Assembly: GCF_003851125.1 (NCBI RefSeq)
Contig: NZ_BGOW01000030.1
Coordinates: forward strand, 1 to 47,447
Length of the DNA stretch: 47,447 nt
Source: Sulfuriferula multivorans
GTDB lineage: Bacteria; Pseudomonadota; Gammaproteobacteria; Burkholderiales; Sulfuriferulaceae
Direction of reading: 5' to 3'
Below, in pieces: positions 21,079 through 25,910 of this stretch. The stretch's first letter is position 1; every line of letters starts with the position of its first letter. A program made the translations under genes and the position numbers. The notes beneath the pieces were generated by a model, which saw only the letters and a program-made list of their open reading frames with translations, had not been told where the DNA came from and ran no database searches.

Positions 21079-22131
<1,053 letters not shown>

Positions 22132-22183
22132 TCAACCAACACATGATGCATCCATGCATGATTGAATTTTTGGAAGCGCCCAC

Positions 22184-22212
22184 AAAAAAGGAGGCCGACG
22201 GCCTCCCTTTTT
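22184..22212 (-). terminator. Intrinsic terminator between rplT and pheS
   Basis: Perfect 7-base GC stem GGAGGCC-GTC-GGCCTCC followed by TTTTTT on the minus strand, 15 bp after the rplT stop. An A-run on the other side makes it bidirectional in form. Confidence 0.85.
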
Positions 22213-22227
22213 GAAGGATAGCCAGCT

Positions 22228-22587
22228 TTAGACCGCCAATTTGGCTTTGGCCTGCTCGGCAAGCAGCGCGAACGCAGGTTTGTCGAACACCGCCAGATCG
22301 GCCAATACCTTGCGATCCAGCACGATTTCGGCTTTTTTCAGACCGTTCATGAATACGCTGTAACGCATTCCGCACTCACGTGCAGCCGCGTTGATACGCG
22401 CAATCCACAGCGAACGGAACTGACGCTTGCGCTGACGACGGTCACGGTAGGCATACTGCCCCGCCTTCATTACCGCCTGCTTGGCGACACGGTAGACGTT
22501 TTTGCGGCGACCGCGATAGCCTTTGGCCAGGTCGAGAACTTTTTTGTGACGCGCGCGCGCCGTTACACCACGTTTTACTCTTGGCAT
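22228..22587 (-). CDS. rplT: 50S ribosomal protein L20
   Basis: 119 residues: [49 protein letters not shown] and [21 protein letters not shown] are textbook bL20. It is needed for early 50S assembly. L20 represses rpmI-rplT translation in other bacteria; a structured infC-rpmI gap exists here. 12 bp separate it from rpmI. Confidence 0.97.
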
Positions 22588-23537: not shown

Positions 23538-25457
23538 TCACTCCTCGCTTGGTTTGCGCAGCGCTACAGCTTCCTTGAGTTGTGCCATAAACACTTCCAA
23601 AGGCATCTGGCCGAGATCCTGGCCCGTACGCGTACGCACTGCAACCATGCCTGCGGCCATTTCCTTGTCGCCGATGATCAGCTGATAAGGCAGCTTTTGC
23701 AAACTATGTTCCCGAATTTTATAGGTTATTTTCTCATTTCTCAAGTCTGTCGTCACACGCAGGCCTTCCTGACGCATCGCATCACAGACTTTTTGCGCAT
23801 ATTCAGCCTGATTGTCGGTGATATTCATCACCACTACTTGCACCGGCGCCAGCCATAGCGGGAAGTTACCGGCATGATGCTCGATCAGGATACCGATGAA
23901 GCGTTCCATCGAACCGAGAATCGCACGGTGCAGCATTACCGGCGCTTTGCGCGTATTGTCCTCGTCCACGAATTCCGCATCCAGCCGCACTGGCAGATTG
24001 AAGTCGAGCTGGATGGTGCCGCATTGCCATAGGCGTCCAAGGCTGTCTTTAAGCGTAAATTCTATCTTGGGTCCGTAGAAGGCGCCTTCACCCGGTTGCA
24101 GGTCGTATTCCAGGCCATTCTGTTGCAATGCGGCCGCCAGGCCAGCTTCGGCCTTGTCCCAGGTTTCGTCTGAACCCACGCGTTTCTCCGGGCGAGTGGA
24201 CAGCTTGACCAGCATGTCGTTGAAGCCGAAGTCCGCATAGACCTTTTGCAGCATGACGATAAAGTCCGCCACCTCGGATTCGATCTGCGTTTCGGTACAG
24301 AAAATATGCGCATCATCCTGGGTAAAGCCGCGCACCCGCATCAAGCCATGCAGCGAACCGGACGGCTCGTTGCGGTGGCATGAACCGAATTCCGCCAGAC
24401 GCAAGGGCAGGTCACGGTAGCTGCGCAGACCATGATTGAATATCTGCACATGACCGGGGCAGTTCATCGGCTTGACCGCGTACTCGCGGTTTTCCGACGC
24501 GGTGGTAAACATGTTGTCGCGATAATTTTCCCAGTGGCCGGATTTTTCCCACATCTGCCGGTCCATGATCGTCGGTGTGCGCACTTCCTGATAACCGTAT
24601 TCGCGGAATTTTTCGCGCATGTACTGCTCGATCTGCTGCCAGATCACCCAACCGTTGGGGTGCCAGAACACCATGCCCGGCGCTTCATCCTGCATGTGAA
24701 ACAGGCTGAGCTGCTTTGCCAGCTTGCGGTGATCGCGCTTCTCGGCTTCTTCCAGACGATACAGGTAAGCATCGAGGTCTTCCTTTTTCGCCCACGCAGT
24801 GCCGTACACGCGCTGCAGCATTTCGTTGCGGTGATCGCCGCGCCAGTACGCGCCGGCCAGCTTCATCAACTTGAAATGCTTGAGCTTGCCGGTAGACGGC
24901 ACATGCGGCCCGCGGCACAGGTCGGTGAAATCACCTTCGGTATACAGCGACACATCCTCATTCGCCGGGATGGAGGCGATGATTTCCGCCTTGTAGTACT
25001 CACCAAGGCCCTTGAAATACGCCACCGCTTCGTCGCGCGGCAGAACTTTGCGGCTGACCTGGATATCACGCTTGGCCAACTCGGCCATCTTTTTCTCGAT
25101 GGCCTGCAAATCTTCCGGCGTAAACGGGCGCTTATAGGAAAAATCGTAGTAGAAGCCATCCTCGATGACCGGGCCGATGGTCACTTGCGCATCCGGATAG
25201 AGCTCTTTCACCGCGTAGGCCAGCAGGTGTGCGGTAGAGTGACGGATCATGTCCAGGCCATTGGCATCGCGGTCGGTCACAATAGACAGTTGCGCATCCT
25301 GCGCGATGACGAAACTGGTATCCACCAGCGCGCCATCAACTCGACCGGCCAGCGCAGCCTTGGCCAGCCCGGCGCCTATCGAGGCGGCGACTTCAGCCAC
25401 CGTGACCGGCTGGGGGAAACTGCGCACAGAACCATCTGGCAAAGTGACATTCAACAT
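23538..25457 (-). CDS. thrS: Threonyl-tRNA synthetase
   Basis: 639 residues (E. coli 642). An N-terminal TGS domain (1-62) precedes the editing domain with [16 protein letters not shown] (about 72-). The class II core carries [26 protein letters not shown] and [12 protein letters not shown], and the anticodon domain is at the C-terminus (about 535-639). The start at 25457 ([11 protein letters not shown]) follows GGAG by 7 bases. The coding start lies only about 20 bases after a perfect intrinsic terminator preceded by a Thr-rich leader peptide, so transcription is probably attenuated when threonyl-tRNA is plentiful. It heads thrS-infC-rpmI-rplT-pheST-ihfA-merR. Confidence 0.97.
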
Positions 25458-25477
25458 TGATTTCTCCGGCACAAAAC

Positions 25478-25505
25478 AAAAAAGCGCGGATAGCCGCGCT
25501 TTTTT
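25478..25505 (-). terminator. Terminator (attenuator) just before thrS
   Basis: A perfect 12-base stem: AAAAAAGCGCGG/CCGCGCTTTTTT with a 4-base loop, ending in six Ts on either strand. It lies between the leader-peptide stop (25523) and the thrS ribosome site. It is bidirectional in form; its position makes it the 3:4 hairpin of an attenuator. Confidence 0.88.
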
Positions 25506-25522
25506 GACAGATACAAACCTAC

Positions 25523-25579
25523 TCAGGGATTAACGCGATGATAGTGACTGGTTGTGGTCGTGCAAGTTCGCGGTGTCAT
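25523..25579 (-). CDS. Threonine-rich leader peptide of thrS (18 residues)
   Basis: ATG at 25579 to TGA at 25523 encodes [18 protein letters not shown]. Six of 18 residues are threonine, four of them consecutive (codons 7-10, 25550-25561). AAAGG lies 7 bases before the ATG. Downstream, a segment near the peptide's end (TCGCGTT on the minus strand, 25532-25538) can pair either with an upstream ACCGCGA (25568-25574, one mismatch) or with the left arm of the terminator. Stalling at the Thr run would leave it free to disrupt the terminator. This is the classic leader-peptide attenuation layout. Expression and mechanism are inferred. Confidence 0.75.
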
Positions 25580-25624
25580 AACGCTGCCTTTCCGTGTCCC
25601 ATCTATTATCTGTATTGAATCCGT

Positions 25625-25701
25625 TGGTAGGCGCGATTGGACTCGAACCAACGACCCCCACCATGTCAAGGTGGTGCTCTAACCAGCTGAGCTACGCGCC
25701 T
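25625..25701 (-). tRNA. tRNA-Val (anticodon GAC)
   Basis: 77 nt. Acceptor AGGCGCG/CGCGCCT is fully paired, the D arm is GCTCAGCTGGTTAGAGC, and the anticodon arm CCACC-TTGACAT-GGTGG gives GAC. The T arm contains GGTTCGAGTCC, and CCA is encoded. It reads GUC/GUU. It lies 45 bp upstream of the thrS leader peptide on the same strand with no terminator between, so co-transcription into thrS is possible. Confidence 0.95.
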
Positions 25702-25712
25702 GAGGAGGCCGC

Positions 25713-25741
25713 ATTGTACCGGAGTTGCTGCAGGCTTTCAA
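25713..25741 (-). promoter_or_regulatory. Sigma-70 promoter for tRNA-Val
   Basis: Minus strand TTGAAA (25736-25741), 17-base spacer, TACAAT (25713-25718), 11 bases before the tRNA 5' end. Confidence 0.75.
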
Positions 25742-25910
25742 TGTGAAAATCCAAACTCGTCTATATTGAATTGATTGATGCATTGAGTCGATCAGGCTGT
25801 CTTTGTTCAATTTTTTTAAATAATTCGTTCCAAACATTCCGCTATATCTGCAGGAGCGTATTGCATAGACTTGCTTCAATATTTGAACAATTGAATAGAG
25901 GAGCTGAAAT

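Follow-up and report, generated by a model that had tools for sequence, protein, structure and literature searches.

A putative threonine leader peptide and transcription attenuator upstream of thrS in Sulfuriferula multivorans and other Burkholderiales

Introduction

The T-box before thrS is an RNA element that reads the charging of tRNA-Thr. In Escherichia coli, the synthetase genes pheST are controlled by a leader-peptide attenuator, and the thrL leader, which controls thrABC, also uses Ile codons. Leader-peptide attenuators have been described for cysS in Rhodobacterales (uORFC-8-2; PMC8632094), for leuS and trpS2 in Streptomyces (PMC1262725), for a hisS paralogue in bacilli (PMC2965389) and for alaS in Streptomyces lividans (PMC8079986). 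In the classical cases, codons for the enzyme's own amino acid are followed by alternative antiterminator and terminator structures.

For thrS, several solutions have been described or proposed. The ThrRS of E. coli recognises an element before thrS that mimics tRNA-Thr (PMC8058203), and T-boxes precede thrS in Bacillota (PMC12452182). A leader peptide, also called thrL, was proposed before thrS of S. lividans; it is the peptide MKRVRPFLETTPGFVPAR with two Thr, its transcript is leaderless, and termination is unclear according to PMC8079986.

Here we analyse a stretch of 47,447 nucleotides from Sulfuriferula multivorans (the window), in which thrS is preceded by a short frame rich in Thr codons and by a terminator. 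Sequence comparison makes it very probable that this leader is a transcription attenuator, which would give more enzyme when charged tRNA-Thr is scarce. It would control the same gene as the E. coli operator, which acts by protein binding and at the level of translation (PMC8058203, in part). In the T-box the RNA binds tRNA directly; the leader described here is likewise proposed to read tRNA-Thr charging. As for S. lividans thrL, a small frame with Thr codons is proposed here to attenuate thrS, but that leader belongs to a different phylum and shows no evident common core (PMC8079986). The present frame comes with a ribosome site and a clear terminator, and its relatives are many. The order of own-amino-acid codons and alternative structures is that of the classical synthetase attenuators; what differs is the amino acid and gene, a near-constant CGA-ACT, the spread over many families of one order and the frequent position behind tRNA-Val.

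Leader-peptide attenuation of synthetase genes is thus already known. In the main text of open-licence papers, PMC11109978 and PMC4603805 among them, we found no report of a thrS leader peptide for Burkholderiales. If the proposal is correct, ThrRS control would be defined for many families of a large order, and might extend to the genes behind thrS (infC, rplT, pheS and pheT).

Results

Architecture of the thrS leader

All features given below lie on the minus strand. The gene for threonine--tRNA ligase, thrS (23538-25457), was identified with NCBIfam TIGR00418 (768.7 bits, cut-off 383.65) and is followed by infC, rplT, pheS and pheT (NCBIfam, above cut-off). Upstream, ARAGORN and Rfam place a tRNA-Val (GAC) at 25625-25701, and a consensus scan gave a promoter-like TTGAAA-17-TACAAT at 25713-25741 (10 of 12 matches); one such element was seen against 0.6 expected, which by itself is no evidence of function. 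Because this element precedes tRNA-Val, tRNA-Val and thrS probably form a single transcript, including the leader, and it is possible that transcription starts there.

Between tRNA-Val and thrS we found a Shine-Dalgarno sequence, GGAAAGG (25587-25593), with similar purine-rich sites in relatives, and a frame of 18 codons (25523-25579; ATG at 25579, TGA ending at 25523). Having a ribosome site and codons for the amino acid of the regulated enzyme, the frame has the make-up of a leader peptide gene and is presumably translated. An intrinsic terminator lies between frame and thrS, as in an attenuator: reading and a terminator scan agree on a 12-bp stem with a CTAT loop and a T run at 25478-25505, AAAAAAGCGCGG(CTAT)CCGCGCTTTTTT, separated by 20 bases from the thrS ATG (25457). 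Direct reading confirmed the positions at which the initial annotation had placed the ribosome site, frame, terminator and thrS ATG. The run of four Thr codons that it reported is present at codons 7-10; the frame also has Thr2 and Thr5, so that six of its 18 codons are for Thr.

Rfam searches of the window at the gathering threshold found only tRNAs, and no T-box match was obtained at or below that threshold. A full-length match to RF00506 (Threonine operon leader) scored 17.6 bits, below the threshold of 55 (E 0.36). This family, that of E. coli thrL, has a terminator as the present leader does; the likeness is not a family-level match.

Further downstream, reading by eye shows in the rplT-pheS gap (22099-22240, minus strand) a frame of 11 codons, one of them for Phe, as well as a terminator-like hairpin. 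The E. coli leader pheM is Phe-rich; no Phe-rich leader of this kind was seen by eye in the gap.

We then asked how unusual the site is. The window contains 734 frames that start with ATG and span 8-40 codons. Among these, no other than the leader frame combines six or more Thr with a Thr share of 30% or more, and TTTT occurs in just one other. The sequence ACNACNACNACN occurs four times in the window against 0.63 expected, and therefore the Thr run alone proves little. The terminator is the only one found by the scan across 25440-25900 (0.4 expected), and a 15-base core occurs once in the organism's own genome when one mismatch is allowed. The whole leader folds no better than shuffled sequences (z -0.51), and the antiterminator of the window, taken alone, is not above chance (p 0.36). 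The case for a leader is made by its relatives.

Conservation of the leader among relatives

The sample of the order comprised 399 genomes, of which 387 gave a thrS match. From the most similar thrS listed, 100 places in the order were picked by hand for spread, not at random, and 14 regions from the genus, the window among them, were added; one of the 114 was too short, leaving 113 usable regions. In 45 of the 113 regions, from 14 of 34 families, thrS is preceded by a short frame that reads CGA-ACN (Arg-Thr) in phase after its first 2-4 codons. Four more families (f8, f10, f32 and f49) were found by motif, giving 18. One region (L012) was left out of the 45 and may be a true variant; L193, L206 and L275 were left out as unrelated, and frames reading MVGVVGSSPIAPTTT were ignored as tRNA sequence. 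The remaining 68 regions have no CGA-ACN leader as scored, although in six of them there is a plausible Thr frame that does not fit this pattern (e.g. MTTTRTTTFFNLG, MLKTDTTTLMISG). Five regions that lack the CGA-ACT core still hold frames with 3-6 Thr, e.g. MTTTRTTTFFNLG, MLKTDTTTLMISG and MRPPTTFTRGDRH.

Searches that started from the leader led back to thrS. Allowing up to three mismatches, the motif matched 85 of the 399 genomes; this search is noisy, and a reversed control also matches many. Thirty loci were fetched, and thrS lay downstream in all 26 that bear the core. When public genome contigs were scanned for the ribosome site together with the core, at least 119 loci matched. Among the matches listed, thrS starts 122-268 nt past the leader ATG in 117 of 119, and the remaining two loci end 43 and 347 nt after it, too short to show thrS. 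Variovorax, Acidovorax, Rhodoferax, Massilia, Janthinobacterium and Herbaspirillum are among the genera in the matches listed.

Within the genus, AGCGTTATGACACCGCGAAC stands ahead of a terminator in nine of 14 readable thrS upstream regions. In these nine leaders the MTPRT core is conserved, with both Thr2 and Thr5; the other five lack an MTPRT-type core, and two of the five have other Thr-containing frames. A check proposed in the initial annotation, for loss of ATG, frame or Thr codons in relatives that keep the terminator, has a mixed outcome: ATG, frame and Thr5 are kept in nine genus leaders, and the Thr run is lost, as is the core in five members. The leader of the closest genome (95% ThrRS identity), MTPRTRAAAHDNYRRVNP, has no Thr run at codons 7-10. 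We rejected this run as a conserved sensor, since it is missing from most genus leaders and its codons vary freely. The initial annotation placed the stalled ribosome at codons 7-10; the run there is absent even from the nearest species, and the constant codon is Thr5. Between families, the sole constant Thr is that of CGA-ACN, and the peptides vary widely (MFRTTTTTGK, MSFRTTTTGTLNLG, MFKRTTTTRTSR, MNFRTCTILVQKA, MSPRTCFSVRG, MTPRTCFFLR).

Threonine signal and codon use

The codons after the core played no role in the selection of sequences. In 168 distinct leaders, 300 of 1472 of these codons (20%) are for Thr in frame, compared with 22 and 50 of 1304 (2-4%) in the other two frames of the same stretches. 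Codon 6 is Thr in 81 of 106 distinct peptides from the pattern loci among the matches listed. The core itself (Arg4-Thr5; 25565-25570, minus strand, in the window) is conserved also at the level of bases: the third base of the ACT, which was outside the selection, is T in 150 of the 168 distinct leaders, whereas thrS itself seldom uses ACT: over its first 400 codons at 111 loci, this codon accounts for 117 of 2049 Thr codons. The in-frame Thr excess together with this ACT bias suggests selection at the amino-acid level as well as on the bases of the core. The number of Thr codons can be small: among the 45 anchored leaders, six carry a single Thr and 21 carry two. With so few such codons a Thr sensor would have little to read, which counts against the attenuator reading.

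The ACT bias and the leaders with a single Thr would also suit a leader that senses slow decoding of the rare CGA, Arg supply or general translation stress in place of charged tRNA-Thr. CGA is indeed rare in thrS (58 of 2740 codons for Arg over the initial 400 codons), but in the leaders it was part of the selection. We hold sensing of this kind to be highly improbable, as the gene controlled is thrS, Thr is enriched after the core (only Thr was counted, not Arg) and Thr frames persist in the five regions that lack CGA-ACT.

Conservation of the core at the base level could, alternatively, mark a protein site, with ThrRS, as in E. coli, binding the leader RNA to repress thrS, and the frame being incidental. 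An E. coli-type operator mimic of tRNA-Thr was found by a strict rule in none of the 113 regions of this order, where 1.4 were expected by chance. The Thr excess is specific to one reading frame, and five regions drop the core yet keep Thr frames. In addition, the same leader fronts a divergent group of ThrRS that are only 61-63% identical to that of the window (12 of 87 compared; L062, L067, L069, L092, L096, L102, L103, L106, L133, L136, L152 and L156, all behind an MTPRT leader); 73 of the 87 have 68-87% identity. Repression by ThrRS thus seems to us highly improbable here. In other orders of Gammaproteobacteria, where 52 genomes had thrS and the loci of 29 were examined, a hairpin like the tRNA-Thr anticodon arm precedes thrS in 11 of 29 under the same strict rule (0.3 expected); the loops of such hairpins (L281-L309, upstream of thrS) carry CGU or GGU. 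The difference between orders suggests that one essential gene is under unrelated control principles in related groups.

Of 183 leaders examined for a tRNA in the preceding 400 nt, 77 have a tRNA-Val there and 105 gave no tRNA hit. The latter count and the 61-63% identical ThrRS indicate that the leader depends neither on the version of ThrRS nor on a tRNA. These numbers also bear on a simpler explanation, in which the terminator is the leaky end of the tRNA-Val gene and the intervening frame has no regulatory role. Several families (e.g. f25, f35, f15 and f37) do have a terminator directly after tRNA-Val with no room for a leader. Since, however, the 105 leaders without a nearby tRNA keep the leader and, with few exceptions, the terminator, and since the Thr excess is frame-specific and the pairings co-evolve (see below), we regard a mere tRNA-Val end as quite improbable.

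Predicted alternative pairings of the leader RNA

The attenuator reading predicts that the terminator has a competing partner. A terminator-like hairpin was found by a loose rule in 185 of 188 leaders. From these 188, the pairing analysis took the 165 distinct peptides for which a terminator had been detected. The best partner of the terminator 5' arm is centred between -10 and +20 nt of the leader stop in 149 of the 165. Compared with shuffled spacers, this antiterminator has a mean z of -1.26 (-1.0 in the 45 anchored leaders), and p is 0.1 or better in only 70 of the 165.

For an alignment-free test between families, one leader per family was drawn 100 times from 71 family-labelled leaders of 18 families, and the fit of each segment to its own family's partner was compared with the fit to partners from other families. 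Pairing of region 2 with the terminator 5' arm was 1.25 kcal/mol better than expected (median p 0.003), so that an antiterminator is found at the family level, against p 0.36 for the window alone. Region 1, the leader start that holds the control codons, fitted region 2 by 2.54 kcal/mol better than expected (median p 0.001), as would a pre-emptive pairing. Region 1 showed no such fit to the terminator 5' arm (0.00 kcal/mol, median p 0.46), and a direct pairing of the two was rejected. Eight shuffled controls gave median p values of 0.08-0.92, seven of them above 0.37. Coordinated changes can be seen in single leaders: UAGCC in region 2 with GGCUU in the arm (L219), UGGCC with GGCCU (L232) and GUCG with CGAC (L254). 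Such matching of leader start, stop region and terminator 5' arm is the signature predicted for leader-peptide transcription attenuation.

In the window, region 2 (25538-25532, UCGCGUU, minus strand) would form the antiterminator with 25500-25494 (AGCGCGG). The initial annotation had proposed the same strand; the pairing with the first arm of the terminator involves G-U wobbles and not the bulged G that it described. For the pre-empting stem it had proposed 25568-25574 with 25532-25538, and here a better partner was found. The strongest predicted duplex of region 1 (25577-25562) is with 25522-25506, just past the leader stop (-14.6 kcal/mol), and could form if no ribosome covers region 1. Region 2 lies inside this duplex, and the antiterminator would have to cross it; pseudoknots aside, only one of the two can form. 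The stem that pre-empts the antiterminator thus probably uses bases just past the stop codon. Leader-peptide attenuation of thrS, as originally suggested, is supported comparatively by the conserved ATG, frame and ribosome site, by the Thr excess and by the 1:2 and 2:3 pairings, the numbers denoting region 1, region 2 and the terminator 5' arm.

Predicted effect of ribosome position

We folded only the RNA through the terminator loop, a stage at which the 3' arm has yet to be transcribed. The mean probability that the arm is held upstream was 0.83 with a ribosome at Thr5, 0.54 with a ribosome at the stop codon and 0.63 with no ribosome; with shuffled spacers it was 0.69 at Thr5 and 0.61 at the stop. 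The mean drop from Thr5 to stop was 0.29 in real leaders and 0.08-0.11 in shuffled ones. A drop of more than 0.3 was predicted for 72 of 165 real leaders, compared with 23-34 of 165 in ten shuffled sets, and for 21 of the 45 anchored leaders, compared with 9-14; the other 93 of the 165 show no such drop. As the leaders are related and not independent, Wilcoxon values for arm holding overstate the certainty. For the window the values were 0.93 at Thr5, 0.33 at the stop and 0.82 without a ribosome. In a textbook attenuator the state without ribosome terminates; the modelled value of 0.82 is a departure from this.

Proposed mechanism

The co-evolving segments in 18 families, and the established behaviour of leader-peptide attenuators for stalling and read-through, lead us to infer the following course of events. 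RNA polymerase would start, probably before tRNA-Val, and transcribe the short frame, which would be translated. When charged tRNA-Thr is plentiful, the ribosome would reach the stop codon and cover the nearby region 2; the terminator could then form, and thrS would not be transcribed. When charged tRNA-Thr is scarce, the ribosome would stall at Thr5 (or at Thr2, and in the window also at Thr7-10) and cover region 1. Region 2 (UCGCGUU) would then be free to pair with the terminator 5' arm (AGCGCGG), thrS would be transcribed and charging would be restored.

A bolder extension, which we offer tentatively and consider rather doubtful, is that in Burkholderiales the attenuator replaces the ThrRS-binding tRNA mimic of many other Gammaproteobacteria, and that its sensor is the near-invariant CGA-ACU dicodon. 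A slow CGA in the P site would sensitise the single Thr codon that follows, while additional Thr runs come and go. A near-constant CGA-ACU with as few as one Thr raises the question of how little leader peptide is needed to sense charged tRNA.

Two minor observations concern tRNA-Val. At L189, L190, L251, L263, L273 and L277-L279, a terminator-like hairpin sits only a few bases past tRNA-Val and thrS comes next, which leaves no space for a leader. In the nearest relative (L002), upstream of position 1377, the 5' half of tRNA-Val looks broken, possibly at the junction of a mobile element, and the search gave no tRNA there, while its leader, terminator and thrS remain intact.
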